Below, one piece after another: positions 19,877-39,791 of a DNA stretch of 40,117 nucleotides; the stretch's first letter is position 1, and each line of letters opens with the position of its first letter. Origin of the DNA: a virus; the IMG/VR virus record IMGVR_UViG_3300020170_000014, positions 1 to 40,117 of that record. The stretch is one strand, 5' to 3'. The notes under the pieces are model-generated. The model was given only the letters and a program-made list of their open reading frames with translations, did no database searches and was not told where the DNA came from. Made by a program: the position numbers and the translations under genes.

Positions 19877-20986
19877 CTAAACTCCAGTAATTCCGGTTCC
19901 TTTTGAACTCCTTCGGAAAGCCTTAGGAATCATTTGTCCTATGACATAAAACCTAGCTATTCTTCCTGCTTGGTCAGGGATAGTAAGTGGCTTCTGGTAG
20001 TACCATCCATTGAATTCAGATGGCATATCAAGAGCGAGTGCCCCTGTTCCTTCATATGTTTCCATAGTTCCAAAATCAACTTTTTCAAGGACATCAGAAT
20101 ATTCCTCAGGAACTTCTGTTCTTCCCATCCAATCCATATAACTTTCGTTGTTCATCCATAACGTTTGTGCTGTTGAAAAATCATCCCGCATGATTGACAT
20201 GTCTCGGTAAGAAAGTGCGCTAAATCCTGCCGCATTTCTAAGCTCAGCATTGTTTCTCTCTCCATACTTTGCGCGTACCCGAACTTTGTCATAGCCAACC
20301 GCTTCATACGATGCGCGAACGTTTGGTGTTAAAAGCTGCTCGTAGAGTGACCAAATTGTTTTTGTCGTGTATGCAGCGTTTGGTGTTTCTCCAGCAAGTC
20401 CTGATGCGATAGCACTGTCATACTGTGTTGCCATAGTAGCCAACGTTAATTTGCCACCACTATACGCAGTGAGCGTTGAGTCTAAGACAGGATAAGTTGA
20501 TCGAGAGAGTCCGCCAATAGTGGAAACATTTGTTCCATCATCAATTATTGCACCAAGTCCAAGTGGTTGTGATGCGGTTCCAAATCCAAATACCGCTGCT
20601 CCAAGTGCCTGAAGTGCTTGTGCTGCTGCTTTTTCGTATTTGAAAGTATCGAGATTTATAAGACCAAGGGCTCCTGCGTTTGCAAAAGACTCAAGCATAA
20701 TGGAAACGACGGGTTGGGTGAAAGCGGTGTGTGCAAAACTTCCGGTTACTGTGGTAGAAACAGCAGAGCTGTTAAGTGTTTCAAGACCCGTAAAGAATTG
20801 CCCAGAAGTATCTGAAACAACATCATAGGTAACATCTTCTGTTTTTCCTTGAAATGGTTTTCCTTGAGAAACAAGACGCGAATAAACCGTGGGAGAATTT
20901 AATACCTGATCAACAACTTTTGTATAGAGTTGTCTATTGCCAAAGTTATCAACTCTGTTTCCAAACTGGATACCGTCATATGCCAT
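19877..20986 (-). CDS. Major capsid protein (HK97-like fold)
   Basis: 369 residues from the ATG at 20986 (AAGGAG 6 nt ahead); a frame 10 codons longer has no ribosome site. Order fits an HK97-type shell protein without delta-domain repeats: N-terminal arm (FGNRVDNFGNRQLYTKVVDQVLNSP), E-loop region (TYDVVSDTSGQFFTGLETLNSS), spine and P-domain helices (FKYEKAAAQALQALGAAVFGFG), and a closing strand (YYQKPLTIPDQAGRIARFYVIG). It follows the scaffold gene directly. Assignment rests on size, composition and gene order (portal-scaffold-MCP). Confidence 0.85.
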   Translation of the reverse strand: MAYDGIQFGNRVDNFGNRQLYTKVVDQVLNSPTVYSRLVSQGKPFQGKTEDVTYDVVSDTSGQFFTGLETLNSSAVSTTVTGSFAHTAFTQPVVSIMLESFANAGALGLINLDTFKYEKAAAQALQALGAAVFGFGTASQPLGLGAIIDDGTNVSTIGGLSRSTYPVLDSTLTAYSGGKLTLATMATQYDSAIASGLAGETPNAAYTTKTIWSLYEQLLTPNVRASYEAVGYDKVRVRAKYGERNNAELRNAAGFSALSYRDMSIMRDDFSTAQTLWMNNESYMDWMGRTEVPEEYSDVLEKVDFGTMETYEGTGALALDMPSEFNGWYYQKPLTIPDQAGRIARFYVIGQMIPKAFRRSSKGTGITGV

Positions 20987-21098
20987 ATAAATCTCCTTGT
21001 TGTGGTTTTTATCCACAAAAAAACTCGCCCCCCAAAAGGTAAGCGAGTAAGTCTCGTAATTTAGATATAGTGTACTGTCTCTAAGGGAGGGGTGTCAA
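20987..21098 (-). promoter_or_regulatory. Promoter and terminator-like leader of the MCP gene
   Basis: Minus strand: TTGACA (21093-21098), 18 bp, TACACT (21069-21074); then a hairpin ACTCGC/GCGAGT (21043-21048 with 21023-21028) followed by seven T; then a small TGTGG/CCACA stem (21001-21017) and the AAGGAG site. It makes the MCP separately controlled from the scaffold gene. Confidence 0.5.
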
Positions 21099-21101
21099 TG
21101 C

Positions 21102-22031
21102 CTATGCTTTTTGACGTTGTAATCCCTCTTCGAGAAGTTGTCGATATGATTTATTGTGATCACGGGCGTAAATATATGCCTTGGAATCACTCTTTACGGC
21201 AGAACTTCTTGATCCCGAAACGGGAGCATCCGCACCCGCAGGCTGTGTATTATTTCCCGACTTATAATGCATAAAATAGATTTTAGAAATTGAATCAAGT
21301 GCCGGAAGATCTTTCTTGATCCGTTCGTTGTTAATCTTCACTCCTAATTCAAAGAGTTCATTTCTAATTTTATCCCCTTCATCCCCTTCTTTGGTGGATC
21401 GAGGAATAAATTTTCCCTCATAAAGCTCCTCAAGCTCAGCAGCAATCTTTCGAGAAACCGCGGCAGATTTCTCCTCCTGGGTTTTTCTCTCTGACTCCTG
21501 CTGTTCTCTCTCTTGACGAGTTCTTTCCTCCTGTGCCCGTTCCCGCTCCTCAAAGAGTTTATTCATTTTAATCTCTGCTTTTTTTTCAGAGATACGTTCA
21601 ATTTCAGAGAGAGCTTCTTTCCAGTCGGTAGGCAAGCGGTTTTCTTTTTCCCACTTAGTAATAAGTTCATCTGACTCGCGTACTTTTTCCTCTTCGCTCT
21701 TCTTAGAACTCTCAATCTTTTGAAGTTCTTCTTTAAATGCGGTAGTTGCCTTTTGGGTAGCTTTGTCCGTGGCCTCTTCTAAAAGCCGGGGAATATCTAC
21801 TTTTTCTTCTTGAAGAGAATTTTTATCAATACTTTTATCGTTCTCTTTTTTTTCCTCGGAAGGAATTTCTTTTAAGGATTCTTCTTTTTGGGCTCCCTTT
21901 TTACGACGTTCTCTTGTTTCTGTCAGCATTTGCTGTACTGACTTATCATGGTCCCGCTGGTAAACATAGGGCTCTTCTTTTATTTCACTCTCAGGAGAAG
22001 TAACCTCTTTTTTTTCTTCAACATCAGCCAT
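21102..22031 (-). CDS. Scaffolding protein
   Basis: 309 residues, very rich in E, K, R, Q and S, with coiled coil over about 90-200 (KAEIKMNKLFEERERAQEERTRQEREQQESERK). Position between portal and MCP, and this composition, mark the internal scaffold that is lost on maturation. An odd trait: the motif Y(V/I)Yx-RDH(D/N)KSxxQxL occurs near both ends (residues about 22-36 and 286-300). The ATG lies 6 nt after TGA-TATACT and lacks a ribosome site, so the mRNA may be leaderless. Confidence 0.8.
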   Translation of the reverse strand: MADVEEKKEVTSPESEIKEEPYVYQRDHDKSVQQMLTETRERRKKGAQKEESLKEIPSEEKKENDKSIDKNSLQEEKVDIPRLLEEATDKATQKATTAFKEELQKIESSKKSEEEKVRESDELITKWEKENRLPTDWKEALSEIERISEKKAEIKMNKLFEERERAQEERTRQEREQQESERKTQEEKSAAVSRKIAAELEELYEGKFIPRSTKEGDEGDKIRNELFELGVKINNERIKKDLPALDSISKIYFMHYKSGNNTQPAGADAPVSGSRSSAVKSDSKAYIYARDHNKSYRQLLEEGLQRQKA

Positions 22032-22050: not shown

Positions 22051-22722
22051 TCAACTTCCTAAAAGGATTTCGGAAATACGTTCGTTAATCTCCACCACTC
22101 CCCTGGTCTTGTTTTGTCTCGGAGTATCGACCGCTACGGTTTCTGGGTGCCAATCATCGGGATCTTGGAGAGTGTATTCTTCCCCATTCTTTATAAAAGT
22201 TTTTTTAAAAAAAGAATCTTTCTCTTCTTTAGTATTCTTTAGTATATCTATAGTACCTTCCGGTTTTTTCCGGAGTGGGTTGTTGAGCGTGTCCGACCTC
22301 ATGCTATCCATTCCGGTTTTTTCCGGAGTGGGTTGTTGAGCGTGTCCGACCTCAATTACCCCATTCCGGTTTTTTCCGGAGTGGGTTTCTTGTCCATTCC
22401 GGTCTACGTCGGACTGTGTCTCTCCTGCAATCCAAAAGGGGAATAATTTCCTATGTTGGATTTTCCCCAAATCGTCTCGTATGATCTCGCGACGTACAAG
22501 ATCTAGCGAGACAAGCTTAGAAACAATATCAGATACTGTTCCCGACTTTAGCCCTACTTGTTCCCCAAGGTATGTGTTTGTTGCGTAACAGTATCCCTTG
22601 TTGTTGCTTAGTGCTAAAACTCTTCCATAAATTACTTTCTCAGACATAGATAGGTCATCTCTGACCATAATATGTGCGGGTATATAGCATGCACCAACTG
22701 ATTCTTCGGAATAATTTTCCAT
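22051..22722 (-). CDS. Winged-HTH replication-initiator-like protein
   Basis: 223 residues. The N-terminal 95 residues form a winged helix-turn-helix: ACYIPAHIMVRDDLSMSEKVIYGRVLALS, YATNTYLGEQVGLKSGTVSDIVSKLVSLDLVRREII, then a wing ending HRKLFPF. The middle (about 110-150) is a spacer whose DNA carries iterons. The C-terminus is charged. The fold and internal repeats resemble phage/plasmid initiators whose origin lies inside the gene (as lambda O). A transcription regulator is the main alternative. It sits alone between portal and scaffold with its own promoter, terminator and structured leader; TGGAGG precedes the ATG. Confidence 0.65.
   Translation of the reverse strand: MENYSEESVGACYIPAHIMVRDDLSMSEKVIYGRVLALSNNKGYCYATNTYLGEQVGLKSGTVSDIVSKLVSLDLVRREIIRDDLGKIQHRKLFPFWIAGETQSDVDRNGQETHSGKNRNGVIEVGHAQQPTPEKTGMDSMRSDTLNNPLRKKPEGTIDILKNTKEEKDSFFKKTFIKNGEEYTLQDPDDWHPETVAVDTPRQNKTRGVVEINERISEILLGS
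22258..22417. repeat. Iterons inside the HTH gene (candidate origin)
   Basis: Two identical 44-bp units (22258-22301, 22311-22354) and a third unit matching over 24 bp (22364-22387) start every 53 bp with TTCCGGTTTTTTCCGG. A fourth TTCCGG lies at 22397, followed by GTCGGAC, the inverse of the GTCCGAC found in units 1 and 2. The 53-bp step is not a multiple of 3, so the repeats are read in different frames; they are kept as DNA, not as protein. Confidence 0.8.
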
Positions 22723-22983
22723 AAAACCTCCATAAAAACGACAAGACCAGAGTTACCTTAGCAAATAGGAGGAGTTGTGACACACGTCCGGCTAAAAATA
22801 ACTCTGGTCTTGTCGTCGATTAGTAGTAGTACCTACACGGTAGCATGTGTCACCTTGGAATAGTATCGAAAGAAGAGGTTCACTTCAAGAAGATAAGAAG
22901 TCGATTAGAATAGGTTTTATAGAAAAGCTTAAAAATACACACGAAGCGCATTGCTGCGCCTCCTATGTTTGCTAACGCCCGTA
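22723..22983 (-). promoter_or_regulatory. Structured intergenic region upstream of the HTH gene
   Basis: 261 bp without a gene. Read on the minus strand: TTGAAG-17-TACTAT (22860-22888) predicts a start at about 22853. The leader then begins GTGACACA (22846-22853). A perfect 18-bp stem (22799-22816 with 22738-22755) follows. Its loop holds TGTGTCAC (22777-22784), complementary to the 5' end, and CTCCTCCT, complementary to the TGGAGG ribosome site just downstream. The stem is followed by TTTTT. The pairing order A-B-A'-B' permits a pseudoknot. Confidence 0.55.
22931..22962 (-). terminator. Terminator-like hairpin after the portal gene
   Basis: Minus-strand RNA GAGGCGCA-GCAA-UGCGCUUC: an 8-bp stem (one G-U pair) with a GNRA tetraloop at 22943-22962, then GUGUGUAUUUUU. 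The U-run starts 7 nt after the stem, so termination may be weak. Confidence 0.45.
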
Positions 22984-25020
22984 TCATAACACACCCTGGG
23001 GAGGGAGTCCGGTAGGAGGTGTTGCGGGTATTTGCGCAGTGTTAGTTACGGTAGGGTTCTGTGGCTGTGTAGGGCCTGTGGCAGGTTGTCCTTGTGCCAC
23101 CAAAGGGTTTGGTTGTTGCATCTGCTGACTAGCCATTTGCTGCTGTTCTAGAGCCGTCTGGTTCATAAGTGCCTGTGCCATAGCGGTAGAGGTATCAAGA
23201 CCCTTAATTACTTTTTGCATATATGCCATGGGATCTGTTTTCATAAGCATAAGTTTTTCTGTTCTTCCCTCAGGGTCAGAGAGTCCCATGTCAGTAAAGA
23301 ACGTATAGGGATCGATCATCTCCATCTTTGCCATATCCATAGCGTTGTTTTGTGCTCTCAACTTATCAGTGCCTGATGCTTTGATTTTAACTACCATTCC
23401 CTCGTCAACCATGTTTCTATTTAGTTTCATCCACACTGTTTCTCCGGCAATACCAAGAATTTCCTTAAAATGATCTTTGGTATAACGAAGCTTTATAAAC
23501 TGAAGTGACCAACGAGCCATCCACTCTGCAGCGGCATTAATAGTATCTTCAACAAGATCATCAGCCCGAGTGAAGTCATTTTCACGAGCTATTTGATTAT
23601 TGGTAGCGGGAGCATTTCCCATGATTTGCCCCCGTACTGATTGTGATCCTGCAATAGAATACATGCGGTTACGGAGGTTATTTACCTCTTCGAACTCTGC
23701 GGGAGTAGGCCGTTGCGGCTCTATGTACTTATGAGTGTTGTTTACATTGCCATCAACAACAAAGTCTTCGTCGGGATCATTCATATCGATGGACTCAACA
23801 TCAGCAGACGTTAGACCCGCTTCCTTTGAGAAAACATTGTGTCCCCTATTATCAAGTGTTTCGTCAATTTGTTTTCCCCGCTTATCAAGTGTTTCTTGAT
23901 TTCTAATATTCTGTTCGATACGAGACGTTTCATCCATCGGTTGTCTTCCCCACTGGTCATAACCGAGAAAATAGTAGGGCTTTTCAGGGGTTCTGAAATA
24001 GTTGTGATAAACCTTTTCCTCTTTAATATTTTCAGGAACCTGACCGGTTATGAGAAGATGTTGCAAGTCGTTCTCAGTCACTCCTTGCCGGACCCCTTTC
24101 TCATCATAAGAGAAATAGCGGATCTCTCCCTCATAGTCAAAATTAGGATTCTTCATTTTATGGAGTAAGCATTTCTTATACTTCCACATCACCCCATCAA
24201 TGCGCTCCCACTGAGTGTCGGAGTGTCGTTTAAATTGATGAAACCATGTCTCTCGAATCTTTATCGTCGTTGCCATGAGTTTCCATCCTGGCGTATCACC
24301 TACCATAAGACCACTTCTTTGAAGTTCTTTAAAAAACTCTTCTTTCTTGTTAGGAAAACGCATCACTACTTCCTCAACCGTAAGAGGAACGAGTTGCGAA
24401 ACAAACTGCATCTCATTAGCGTCATTGGTAGGGCATGTGTGATCAATATCAATTTCATCAGGATGGATACACTCAAAAACATAGTCATCAATTTCAGGAT
24501 TCCACCGCACCTTAATGCAGCCCGTGAAGTACACTGGATGGTGCTTGAAAGCCAATCCCAGTACTTTCCTATTCTCTCGGTCTTTTATGTCCGTATCGAC
24601 CGCTTTAGAGACTTCCTGTGCCATAAGAACTGACTCATCACTATCGTTGCCAGGCGTTACCATAAGGTCAGGAAGACGAGACATGGCTAGAGGCTTAATG
24701 GTTGACTCAATCTCATAAAGGACATTGTCTTGGAACCGAGATTCGTAGCTTTTAAGATCTCTATCTCGTTCCCGTTGTGCTATTTGCCTCCCGAAGTAAT
24801 ACATCTCGTTTTTTCTTCGTCTGCTATAAAGATCATAGCTTTCTTCATAAAAAATACGGGATTCATTGATTCGTTTATCGATAATATCAACCAGTTCTTC
24901 GTCGGGGATAGCAAGTTCAAGAGGATCAAGGGGCTTTGTTTTGAGATCTTCGTTCTCTCTGTTTTTACTTGTTTTTACATCATTGAAAGATCCCTGCATG
25001 GGAATAGTAGTAGAAGCCAT
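22984..25020 (-). CDS. Portal protein
   Basis: 678 residues from the ATG at 25020; the frame runs two codons further but only to a TTG. Long podovirus-type portal: clip/stem region with PEKPYYFLGYDQWGRQPMDETSRIEQN, a helical wing (DFTRADDLVEDTINAAAEWMARWSLQFIKLRY), and a Gln/Pro-rich C-terminal tail (QQQMASQQMQQPN...) like the barrel or disordered end of P22-size portals. It forms the 12-mer through which DNA is packaged and ejected. It lies after TerL and before scaffold/MCP, separated from the latter by the HTH module. Confidence 0.88.
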   Translation of the reverse strand: MASTTIPMQGSFNDVKTSKNRENEDLKTKPLDPLELAIPDEELVDIIDKRINESRIFYEESYDLYSRRRKNEMYYFGRQIAQRERDRDLKSYESRFQDNVLYEIESTIKPLAMSRLPDLMVTPGNDSDESVLMAQEVSKAVDTDIKDRENRKVLGLAFKHHPVYFTGCIKVRWNPEIDDYVFECIHPDEIDIDHTCPTNDANEMQFVSQLVPLTVEEVVMRFPNKKEEFFKELQRSGLMVGDTPGWKLMATTIKIRETWFHQFKRHSDTQWERIDGVMWKYKKCLLHKMKNPNFDYEGEIRYFSYDEKGVRQGVTENDLQHLLITGQVPENIKEEKVYHNYFRTPEKPYYFLGYDQWGRQPMDETSRIEQNIRNQETLDKRGKQIDETLDNRGHNVFSKEAGLTSADVESIDMNDPDEDFVVDGNVNNTHKYIEPQRPTPAEFEEVNNLRNRMYSIAGSQSVRGQIMGNAPATNNQIARENDFTRADDLVEDTINAAAEWMARWSLQFIKLRYTKDHFKEILGIAGETVWMKLNRNMVDEGMVVKIKASGTDKLRAQNNAMDMAKMEMIDPYTFFTDMGLSDPEGRTEKLMLMKTDPMAYMQKVIKGLDTSTAMAQALMNQTALEQQQMASQQMQQPNPLVAQGQPATGPTQPQNPTVTNTAQIPATPPTGLPPQGVL

Positions 25021-25082
25021 ATACAAAAAAACCCACAGCCAGATTTTTGGTGTGGGGTATGTCCCTTTATTCTATTGTAGCA
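25021..25082 (-). promoter_or_regulatory. Late leader of the portal gene
   Basis: Minus strand: TGC-TACAAT (25074-25082), AATAAAGGGACATA, then a hairpin CCCACACC/GGCTGTGGG (25049-25056 with 25032-25040, one bulge), seven T, GTAT and ATG. No ribosome site. Same order as at 6934-6994, including TTTTTGTATATGGC across the start. Confidence 0.55.
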
Positions 25083-28672: not shown

Positions 28673-30256
28673 TCACTTCCTTTCTTCTCGTACTTTAGGA
28701 ACAATTATACAAGAACTGGTAAGTATCTGAATAGCAACAGAGACCGCATTGGTAAGAGCATTTAAAGGGACGAGAGCGGGGTCGATAATACCTGCCGCGA
28801 CGAGATCTACCGGTTCTCCTGAAGTAACATCGATACCATAGTTATTATCTAAAAGAGCAAGACTCATTCCTGACGAAAACTGATCTATTCCTGCATTACT
28901 AATAAGACGGTAGAAAGGTTCGAGGAGTGCCTTCTCTAAAATACGGTGCGCAGGTATTTCCTTGTTAAGAACATGGCGTATTCTAAAGTAGATCATCTCT
29001 CCCCCTGGTACAATTCCCGATTCAAGTGCTGCTCGTGTTGCTGCTACCGAATCCAAGACCCGCTCTCTGCGCTCTTTCATCTCCACTTCCGTTGCACCCC
29101 CTACTCGAATAACCGCTACTCCGTTCGTAAGTTTAGCGAGTCGTTCTTTTAGCTTTTCTTTGTCAAATTCACCGCTCTCTTCCTCAATTTGCTTCTTAAT
29201 CGAATCTACTCGAGCTTGAAGCGAGTGAGAGTCCCCAGAACCACCCGTTATAATAGTTCCTGACTTTGTTGAAACAATAGACTCAGCTTTACCAAGATGA
29301 CTTATGGTTATATCTTCAATTTTATGCCCTGCATCCTCGGTAATAAACTTAGCACCAACAAAAAGCGCAATATCCTGAAGAAACTCTTTTTGGTTCTGTC
29401 CGAACGAAGGAGCTTTAATACAAAGTACCGATAACTTGCCCTTTAATTTGTTCTGAAGGAGCGTAGGAAGTACGTCACCCCCTATTTCTGGAGCAATAAT
29501 CACCAGTTTATCTTGCTGCTTCCATAGCTCTTCAAGGAGCTTCATAAGCGGTTCTACAACGAGTAGGGATTTATCTGTAACAAGAAATCTTGCATCATGA
29601 AGGATTGCTTCCATATGCTCCGGATGAGTAATGAAGAGGGGGTGGTAGAATCCAGTGTCAAACTGCATTCCTTTTTGAAACTCCACAGTAGTTACTGCGT
29701 TCTTTGATTCCTCAACCGTAATTATTCCATCTTTTGTTGCCTGAGTAAGTGTTCCGGCTACAAGGTTTCCTATCTTCTCGTCTTCTGCTGATATCGTAGC
29801 AATACGAGTTAGCTGATCTTCGGTGGTGATAGGAGTTGCTTGAGAAAGAATCTCATCTATGAGAAGATCTAACCCACTCTCAAGTCCTGATCTAAGTTCC
29901 ATGGGATTAAATCCCGACGCAATATACTTAAATGCTTCTTGAATAATGGCATGAGCTAAGATGATGGTAACCGTTGTCCCATCTCCTACTTCATCAACCT
30001 GTTTACGCGCAGCCTGAATAATGAGTTGCGCACCCATATTTTCGAATTCATCAAGTAGTTCTATACTTCGTGCTACTGATACCCCATCGTGAAGAACAAT
30101 GCGTTCATAGATCTCTCCTCGGGGATTTGTTTTAGCAATCGCGACATTCTGTCCTCGTGGTCCAAGAGTAGTACCAACGCTTTTACAAACAATATCTATT
30201 CCTTTAAGAAACTTCGACCTCGCTTCTTGGTCAAAGAGAACATCAGTTTTGATCAT
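28673..30256 (-). CDS. groEL: Phage-encoded chaperonin GroEL
   Basis: 527 residues from the ATG at 30256 (GAGGAGG just upstream). Bacterial-type group I chaperonin along its whole length: TLGPRG (30-35), catalytic-loop HDGVSVAR with Asp57, GDGTT (91-95), apical-domain EFQKGMQFDTGFYHPLF, and the second equatorial block GVAVIRVGGATEVEMKERRERVLDSVAATRAALESGIVPGGE with the ATP-hydrolysis Asp. Key nucleotide residues are kept, so it looks active. The usual Gly-Gly-Met tail is missing (ends KVREERK), and there is a short insert before Asp57. It follows groES with a 14-nt overlap. Probably folds capsid or tail proteins. Confidence 0.96.
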   Translation of the reverse strand: MIKTDVLFDQEARSKFLKGIDIVCKSVGTTLGPRGQNVAIAKTNPRGEIYERIVLHDGVSVARSIELLDEFENMGAQLIIQAARKQVDEVGDGTTVTIILAHAIIQEAFKYIASGFNPMELRSGLESGLDLLIDEILSQATPITTEDQLTRIATISAEDEKIGNLVAGTLTQATKDGIITVEESKNAVTTVEFQKGMQFDTGFYHPLFITHPEHMEAILHDARFLVTDKSLLVVEPLMKLLEELWKQQDKLVIIAPEIGGDVLPTLLQNKLKGKLSVLCIKAPSFGQNQKEFLQDIALFVGAKFITEDAGHKIEDITISHLGKAESIVSTKSGTIITGGSGDSHSLQARVDSIKKQIEEESGEFDKEKLKERLAKLTNGVAVIRVGGATEVEMKERRERVLDSVAATRAALESGIVPGGEMIYFRIRHVLNKEIPAHRILEKALLEPFYRLISNAGIDQFSSGMSLALLDNNYGIDVTSGEPVDLVAAGIIDPALVPLNALTNAVSVAIQILTSSCIIVPKVREERK

Positions 30257-30560
30257 TTTCCTCCTCAAAAGTACTTCGTATATCTTGTATCTTCACCATA
30301 TAGAATCGCTTTGATCCGTGGACGAAAAAGTCATAGCTTCCCTCATACGAAAGAAAAACTACAGTATCTCCTACCCGTGCATAGCGGCGCATTTCAAGAG
30401 TTGCTCCAAAGTCGGTCCGGATATCATCACCTACGGCAGTAACTCGACCACTCAAAAGCCGCGATCTATTACTTGGGCTTGAAACAAGGGAAAGGCCACT
30501 TGATTCTTGCTCAGTAATTTCACAAATAACAATCCCCGGCGCGGGGGTAAACTTAGTCAT
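30243..30560 (-). CDS. groES: Co-chaperonin GroES
   Basis: 105 residues. Core: FTPAPGIVICEI (strand), mobile-loop region about 16-36 (EQESSGLSLVSSPSNRSRL), GRVTAVGDDI, then ARVGDTVVFLSYEG and FYMVKIQDI. The C-terminal STFEEENDQN extends past the usual end. It should cap the GroEL ring made from the next gene. GGAGG lies 3 nt before the ATG, and the start overlaps the preceding gene by 8 nt. Together they form one operon. Confidence 0.9.
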   Translation of the reverse strand: MTKFTPAPGIVICEITEQESSGLSLVSSPSNRSRLLSGRVTAVGDDIRTDFGATLEMRRYARVGDTVVFLSYEGSYDFFVHGSKRFYMVKIQDIRSTFEEENDQN

Positions 30561-33182: not shown

Positions 33183-33461
33183 TTATTCTCCCTTCAAGCC
33201 TAATTTAATACTTTGTATACGTTGGTTAAACTCATGGGCTGCATCGTTCCATCCTGATGAATGCACGTCTTCGTCGGTAATCTCAATAGTATTCTCATAC
33301 GGAATGCTTTCCATTACCAGGCCATCAAGGAGGGTAGAAAAGAAGGCACAGAGTTCGTCTGTTGCCTTCTCTCCATTAAATTCAAAAGTTCCGTATCCCT
33401 TTTCATGACTCTTAAATAAAATATCGCCAATTTGTTCACGGATATCTTCAACTGCTGTCAT
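33183..33461 (-). CDS. Early protein, paralogue of the 30833 gene
   Basis: 92 residues. Shares FSTLLDGLVM and WNDAAHEFNQRIQSIK with the 30833-31198 protein but lacks its Cys/His insert. The ATG overlaps the previous stop (ATGA). Unknown function. Confidence 0.6.
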   Translation of the reverse strand: MTAVEDIREQIGDILFKSHEKGYGTFEFNGEKATDELCAFFSTLLDGLVMESIPYENTIEITDEDVHSSGWNDAAHEFNQRIQSIKLGLKGE

Positions 33462-33619
33462 AGACTATGTAAAGTATTTCTATTCGGTTCAAAAGGGTCA
33501 GCGGGTAAGCCAAGTGCTTCTCTATAGCGCCGTACCTGTAGATATACGACCATGCCGCCAGTTATTGCACCGAATAGAAATACTCCTCCAAAAAATAAAT
33601 ACATTATAAATTCACTCAT
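33458..33619 (-). CDS. 53-residue membrane protein
   Basis: MSEFIMYLFFGGVFLFGAITGGMVVYL forms one glycine-rich membrane helix, followed by a cytosol-type tail (QVRRYREALGLPADPFEPN). ATGA overlaps on both sides. It begins MSEF, like the 30833 gene at the matching place in the duplicated block, so the duplication boundary runs through its start. Unknown role. Confidence 0.6.
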   Translation of the reverse strand: MSEFIMYLFFGGVFLFGAITGGMVVYLQVRRYREALGLPADPFEPNRNTLHSL

Positions 33620-34581: not shown

Positions 34582-35205
34582 TTACAAGTTGTTTGCTTGC
34601 TCCTTTAGCTCGTTAGCTTTGTCTATCAACTCTTGAGCTTTTTTAAGTAATTCTGATTTTTTATCATCAATAACTATGCCTGTTATTTTTTTAAAGATCT
34701 CTGCATCAAATTGCGGTATAGAAGTTATGCAACCTCTCTGCTGCTCAGTAGAATTAGACCAGAAACTAGCCCATGCATCTTTATACGCAAAAGTTTTTAA
34801 ACAACCTCCCAACTCTCTGTAATTTGGATAATTATTTTTATCATCTTTTGACATGTCCTTTTCCTCAACCCACTTAATTAAATATATTTTTACCTCATTT
34901 TCTCTTAACTCCTTTAACGTATCAGCATATTCTTTCTCAGAGACATCTTTGTTGAATATCCTGATATTTTTTTGATATCCTTCTCCTTTTGACTCAGATT
35001 TTCCACTCCCTAAACAAAAAATCATCTTTTCGCTCATTCTCAACCCAACAGAAAAGTCGCAGAAGTCGCAGAAGTTGCAGAAGTTGCAGAAGTCGCAGAA
35101 GTTGCAGAAGTTGCAGAAGTCGCAGAAGTTGCAGAAGTTGCAGAAGTCGCAGGAGTTGCAGAAGTTGCAGAAGTCGCAGGAGTTGCATCTCATATTGTTT
35201 AACAT
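34582..35205 (-). CDS. Tandem CxxC-repeat protein
   Basis: 207 residues. Residues 6-51 are a run of DFCNFC units, giving about 16 CxxC-spaced cysteines. A conserved domain then starts VGLRMSEKMIFCLGSGKSESKGEGYQKN and runs through RELGGCLKTFAYKDAWASFW and AEIFKKITGI. I recall the same order (Cys run plus this domain) from other metagenomic genes, so the repeat is a protein trait and not junk. A coiled-coil tail ends it. Possibly a metal-rich nucleic-acid- or protein-binding arm; function unknown. AAGGA precedes the ATG. Confidence 0.65.
   Translation of the reverse strand: MLNNMRCNSCDFCNFCNSCDFCNFCNFCDFCNFCNFCDFCNFCNFCDFCDFSVGLRMSEKMIFCLGSGKSESKGEGYQKNIRIFNKDVSEKEYADTLKELRENEVKIYLIKWVEEKDMSKDDKNNYPNYRELGGCLKTFAYKDAWASFWSNSTEQQRGCITSIPQFDAEIFKKITGIVIDDKKSELLKKAQELIDKANELKEQANNL
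35055..35187. repeat. 9-bp tandem repeats in the Cys-run gene
   Basis: About 15 units of GCAGAAGTT or GCAGAAGTC on the plus strand, often in a TTC (T/T/C) order. They encode the DFCNFC run on the minus strand. The array is probably variable in length. Confidence 0.85.

Positions 35206-39054: not shown

Positions 39055-39791
<737 letters not shown>

Follow-up and report, generated by a model that had tools for sequence, protein, structure and literature searches.

A structured leader RNA that may restrain an inserted lambda-O-like initiator gene in a phage of probable Patescibacteria hosts

In the virus record analyzed here (40,117 bases, all of which we call the window), all identified genes are on the minus strand. 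Read on that strand, the portal gene and the downstream HTH gene are separated by a gap of 261 nt, nearly all of which would be the leader of the HTH gene (ca. 250-255 nt). Is this leader a mere spacer, or is it an RNA that controls the gene behind it? The initial annotation had opted for control, by a long stem with a pseudoknot-forming loop through which the ribosome site could be opened or hidden. This is partly confirmed: the stem and the pairing of its loop with the RNA 5' end are present, while the match to the ribosome site is not as described. The features discussed are listed in Table 1.

Table 1. Features of the leader and of the neighboring genes, in the order in which they are transcribed
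Feature	Position	Strand	Remarks
Terminase gene		minus	among the identified genes of the window
Portal gene	22984-25026	minus	named from position and relatives, without profile match
Extended -10 promoter-like box TG-T-TATGAT	22983..22991	minus	overlaps the portal stop codon; found by reading the sequence
a, TTAGCAAAcATAGGAGG	22959..22975	minus	RNA 5' end; complementary to a'
H1	22937..22968	minus	5'-proximal hairpin, 13 bp, GCAA loop, then AUUUUU; -20.6 kcal/mol, z -5.2
Possible 23-codon leader peptide, MRFVCIFKLFYKTYSNRLLIFLK	22880..22951	minus	AGGAGG 7 nt upstream; frame overlaps b
b, TTTTCTATAAAACCT	22912..22926	minus	pairs with ribosome site and start codon
c, GTGACACATG	22844..22853	minus	pairs with c'
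d	22799..22816	minus	5' arm of the 18-bp stem
c', CGTGTGTCAC	22777..22786	minus	within the loop
a', CCTCCTATTTGCTAA	22758..22772	minus	loop segment
d'	22738..22755	minus	3' arm of the 18-bp stem; U run at 22738-22734
b', AGGTTTTATGGAAAA	22715..22729	minus	part of the Shine-Dalgarno sequence and HTH start codon
HTH gene	22051..22722	minus	putative lambda-O-like replication initiator, 223 aa, PF13730 HTH_36; Pfam and PHROG matches
Three tandem 53-bp direct repeats	22258..22416		iteron-like; inside the initiator gene, in three different reading frames
AT-rich tract	22186..22260		20% GC, candidate unwinding element; adjoins the repeats
Scaffold-like gene	21102-22031	minus	named from position and relatives, without profile match
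Promoter-hairpin-capsid arrangement	21098-21017	minus	
Capsid gene	19877-21016	minus	

By its profile matches, the HTH gene resembles initiators of phage replication. Its product carries an N-terminal winged helix-turn-helix domain (PF13730, 28.9 bits against a cut-off of 25, E 1e-6) and matches PHROG 270, a replication initiation protein family (4e-12). The three 53-bp repeats within the gene are read in three frames; thus, the repetition is one of DNA and not of protein. Two copies are nearly identical, and the third has diverged over half its length. The frame-shifted repeats could also stem from a recent duplication. They are adjoined by the stretch with the lowest GC content within the first 30 kb, and repeats and AT-rich tract together are a candidate in-gene origin. 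This layout is the one found in the lambda-O-like/HTH_36 family, with binding of the protein to the repeats being putative. Iteron-like repeats and AT-rich 15-mers are found inside the gene in the same layout in two relatives from the Patescibacteria-phylum genome set (L171 and L172).

Lambdoid origins are located in the middle of gene O and consist of iterons and an AT-rich region (PMC7466680). The HTH gene shares with lambda gene O the N-terminal DNA-binding domain, the in-gene repeats and the adjacent AT-rich tract. It differs in having 53-bp repeats rather than short iterons, in its position among head genes, in the structured leader upstream and in that no P-like partner is seen adjoining it. 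A scan of 29 proteins of the window revealed neither a helicase loader nor a helicase, in a record that may not be complete. In one related locus (L087), the initiator is followed by ORFs that we took, by reading, as a DnaC-like loader and a DnaB-like helicase. The GC skew does not turn near 22 kb.

The HTH gene is lacking in 38 records of related phages, many of them fragments, and is thus most simply explained as an insertion. The gap between portal and scaffold genes is only ca. 20-40 nt in most close relatives and contains a TATAAT-like box; other relatives have different small genes at this position. By this comparison, the gene looks like a replication module inserted between portal and scaffold genes. 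The host is probably a member of the Patescibacteria because a relative of the capsid protein (76% identity) is encoded on a contig (L167) from a Patescibacteria MAG, and because distant relatives of the portal protein occur in a TM7 phage. Two further MAG contigs were matched (assigned to Scalindua and Terriglobia), which are perhaps mis-binned. A portal-based search of genome contigs gave no matches.

Where would the leader RNA begin? The promoter-like box at the portal stop codon places the RNA start near 22976. This box was missed by a promoter consensus scan, which demands a -35 box; a TATAAT-like box follows the portal gene at the same place in related phages. In eight loci (L003, L007, L012, L015, L020, L021, L031 and L053), such a box was seen, by reading and without a count, a few nt before the ATG of the gene that follows the portal gene (usually scaffold). 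So short a distance to the ATG suggests that this phage group has leaderless mRNAs.

The leader RNA is far more structured than expected. The sense strand folds with -94.6 kcal/mol (z -7.0), which none of 200 shuffles reached, and the opposite strand with only -73.6 kcal/mol (z -3.5). Such a bias toward the sense strand is expected if selection acts on the RNA rather than on a symmetry of the DNA. Three leader helices score at least 22 compared to 0.27 expected (0/500 shuffles). Several sense-strand helices, H1, d/d' and b/b' among them, are beyond chance. One of these is the perfect 18-bp stem d/d', which encloses a 43-nt loop exactly as the initial annotation had it. No other perfect stem in the window is as long (runners-up have 16 and 13 bp), and simple counting (40117 x 300 / 4^18) gives a chance expectation of ca. 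2e-4 for a stem of this length. Folded by itself, this hairpin has -41.6 kcal/mol (z -9.2). H1 had previously gone unnoticed.

The loop of the long hairpin has two potential partners upstream. One is the predicted RNA 5' end: the proposed 8-bp pairing is present (TTTGCTAA, 22765-22758, with TTAGCAAA, 22975-22968) and runs on with CCTCCTAT (22772-22765) and ATAGGAGG (22966-22959) to a total of ca. 16 bp (a/a'). The duplex between loop and upstream region has -30.5 kcal/mol, which was not equalled in 500 shuffles of either side, and the middle of the leader, taken as an internal control, forms no such duplex. However, 30 of 1500 random window positions (2%) reach the same value, so that this complementarity is notable and not extraordinary. 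The other partner, which had been overlooked, is a 10-bp helix with one G-U pair (c/c', 22853-22844 with 22786-22777 in the loop). A pairing that would compete with the 18-bp stem, of 22856-22848 with 22743-22735, is weak (9 bp, with a score expected by chance).

Can the loop hide the ribosome site? It does contain the supposed anti-Shine-Dalgarno sequence CTCCTCCT, but the complementarity to TGGAGG of the HTH gene is restricted to GGAGG (5 bp), and these nucleotides of the loop pair better with the 5'-proximal ATAGGAGG (8 bp). By a geometric estimate, ca. 6 nt would have to span the 18-bp stem. With so short a match and so short a connection, the loop is unlikely to reach the ribosome site while the stem is closed and would not easily hide it. 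For full a/a' pairing, H1 is a competitor of higher stability, and only 2 nt are left between a' and d'. A stable full pseudoknot of the order A-B-A'-B', as postulated for the swap between folds, is therefore unlikely. In these models, c/c' is the sterically easier pseudoknot.

A better candidate for masking the start site, which had also been missed, is the helix b/b'. Its 15 pairs (one G-U) extend over part of the Shine-Dalgarno sequence and the AUG of the HTH gene, and it is included in the minimum-energy fold of the leader. When 49 genes were ranked by pairing of their start region with upstream sequence, this duplex came only seventh. According to the folding models, any mask over the ribosome site is likely to be b/b' rather than the loop. 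The segment b is overlapped by a possible upstream frame of 23 codons that has its own AGGAGG. The combination of AGGAGG and a start codon occurs by chance inside other genes of the window, and it suggests only weakly that the frame is translated as a leader peptide.

Along the RNA, the elements follow each other in the order a-b-c-d-c'-a'-d'-b', with crossing helices. When folding was followed stepwise on the growing RNA, H1 formed first, and then c/c' and a 7-bp part of a/a' appeared transiently. Once d' had emerged, they gave way to d/d' and lastly b/b', so that the end state consisted of H1, d/d' and b/b'.

From folding energies and helix statistics of this one sequence, we propose that a cis-acting multi-helix leader throttles an inserted lambda-O-like initiator that carries its own candidate origin, a reading to which we give about an even chance. 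It is plausible that the leader keeps the initiator at a low level. The main effect would come from the ground state, in which b/b' masks the Shine-Dalgarno sequence and the AUG, resulting in low synthesis. Part of the transcripts may also terminate early at the U runs. Opening of the mask would raise synthesis, and the simplest opener would be a ribosome that translates the short upstream frame containing b. The pairing between 5' end and loop would be competing or transient and might help to set the order of helix formation rather than serve as a stable pseudoknot switch.

Alternatively, H1 and d/d' might be terminators which insulate the initiator gene from late transcription that enters from the portal gene, the loop complementarities being incidental. 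This is possible, even though we are inclined to doubt it. Inserted phage genes are often flanked by a terminator, H1 begins 15 nt past the portal stop codon and is followed by AUUUUU, and the TTTTT behind d/d', at which termination had been suggested, is real. However, five U residues behind a hairpin with a 43-nt loop make a poor intrinsic terminator. A terminator located ca. 11 nt ahead of the start codon would, moreover, truncate the initiator transcript itself, which is predicted to start near 22976, and b/b' is left unexplained.

The initial annotation had pointed to copy-number control of plasmid replication genes. With a strong, sense-biased fold and an initiator-family gene downstream, this comparison is reasonable, and the interpretation is partly supported, a plasmid-type mechanism and an antisense RNA being hypothetical. 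A complete switch of this type, in which a leader peptide, a loop pseudoknot and a counter-transcript or other effector set initiator synthesis and hence copy number, fits the crossing order of the helices, the possible upstream frame overlapping b and the initiator-like gene. Nevertheless, we rate it as unlikely: a consensus scan found no promoter-like site for an antisense RNA on the plus strand of the leader, the loop has only the 5-bp, sterically poor match to the ribosome site, and the helix analysis showed no prominent preemptor segment that could pair with the d arm.

Two plasmid systems come close. The rep leaders of ColIb-P9 and IncL/M plasmids combine a leader peptide, a pseudoknot and an antisense RNA (Asano and Mizobuchi 1998, cited in PMC10724649). 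They share with the phage leader an initiator behind a folded leader, a possible leader peptide and crossing complementarities. In the phage, however, no antisense promoter was found, the element order is different, there is no sequence relation, and the loop could pair over only 5 bp with the ribosome site of the initiator gene, its better partner being the RNA 5' end. The attenuator of repC in pT181-type plasmids (Novick 1989, cited in PMC10724649) is comparable in that a hairpin and a U run directly precede the initiator gene. The phage leader differs by its long loop, its short U run, the lack of a clear preemptor and the failure to find a countertranscript.

Still less probable is an action at the DNA level. 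The inverted repeats would then be binding or origin sites for a protein, such as an autoregulatory operator of the initiator, and the RNA fold would be a by-product. Initiators of the iteron type often bind to inverted repeats close to the promoter from which they are expressed, and here a perfect dyad adjoins an initiator gene with in-gene repeats. On the other hand, the sense strand folds much more strongly, arms that are 43 bp apart are atypical of an operator, and the 53-bp repeats resemble the leader no more than expected by chance (P about 0.5).

Is the leader known from elsewhere? Rfam covariance models did not match it at gathering scores or at E values up to 5. Only short, chance-level matches were obtained for its DNA in phages, plasmids, viral contigs, 39 records and 379 genomes of one phylum. 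A 16-mer from the stem had 21 matches in viral contigs, about the chance number, and none of them pairs both arms; a two-arm stem pattern had no match. A 17-mer from the 5' end had 12 matches, which are not followed by the remainder of the leader in the alignments listed. A comparable stem was found in none of the initiator relatives examined (from 80 viral and 8 genome loci). Just three other family members have an upstream stem, of only 10-12 bp, and the region upstream of the closest initiator relative (L170) is coding and unstructured. The leader is therefore not a feature of the initiator family. The lack of relatives, together with the 2% of random positions that equal the loop duplex, would fit a young, non-functional intergenic region that arose by chance or recent rearrangement and arrived with the gene, a very improbable origin given a stem expected ca. 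2e-4 times, a leader z of -7.0 and several independent helices together.

Returning to a leader that throttles the initiator, it is tempting to speculate, and we do so only tentatively, that this is a Patescibacteria phage with a transplantable replication module, the initiator of which would be controlled in cis by a crossing-helix leader RNA. This would amount to plasmid-like copy control, unrelated in sequence to known rep leaders. If so, control of replication initiation at the RNA level would also exist in phages of a bacterial radiation that has received little study, and the module would offer a compact candidate replicon for use in bacteria for which genetic tools are scarce.

A pattern before the capsid gene is better supported than the control by the leader. 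In a set of related loci (L003-L054 and L167), a TTGACA-like/TATAAT-like promoter is followed by a terminator-like hairpin with a T run and then by the capsid start; the window has its own copy. With a promoter of at least 9/12 matches and a downstream hairpin with a T run as criteria, at least 31 of the 40 distinct loci in the related phages have this arrangement, compared to 0.05 expected from shuffles. The same scan at other genes gave 0/27, 2/19, 0/10, 0/9 and 0/25. An upstream segment that competes for the 5' arm of the hairpin (at least 4 Watson-Crick pairs) is found in 24 of the 33 loci with a scored hairpin (4.8 expected), the hairpin criteria differing between these two counts. In another count, made over a slightly different stretch, the competing segment had four pairs in 22 loci and three in 10. 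Four or five types of base pair are represented at every one of the four core positions of the terminator stem. The loci were grouped by a loose identity filter only and thus are not fully independent. The pattern is reminiscent of attenuation or antitermination acting on the capsid gene, which suggests that control of head genes by termination or antitermination is conserved in this phage group. In some loci, L020, L023, L025 and L041 among them, two tandem hairpins seem to be present. In the published TM7 phage, the elements are not arranged in this order; a similar version with a longer loop is found in the Manatee Spring phage.

A few further features of the window are worth recording. Phage-encoded GroEL (PHROG 5e-133) and GroES-like genes adjoin the packaging genes (28673-30560, minus strand), and groEL is also annotated upstream of the terminase in the Manatee Spring phage record. 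A 53-codon ORF contains a perfect 16-bp stem (33458-33619 / 33473-33584), the 3' arm of which ends 11 nt before the start of the next gene (33461); this is a candidate for translational coupling. Tandem repeats at 35054-35187 and 39133-39310 code for Cys/Phe-rich and Ala-rich repeat proteins.
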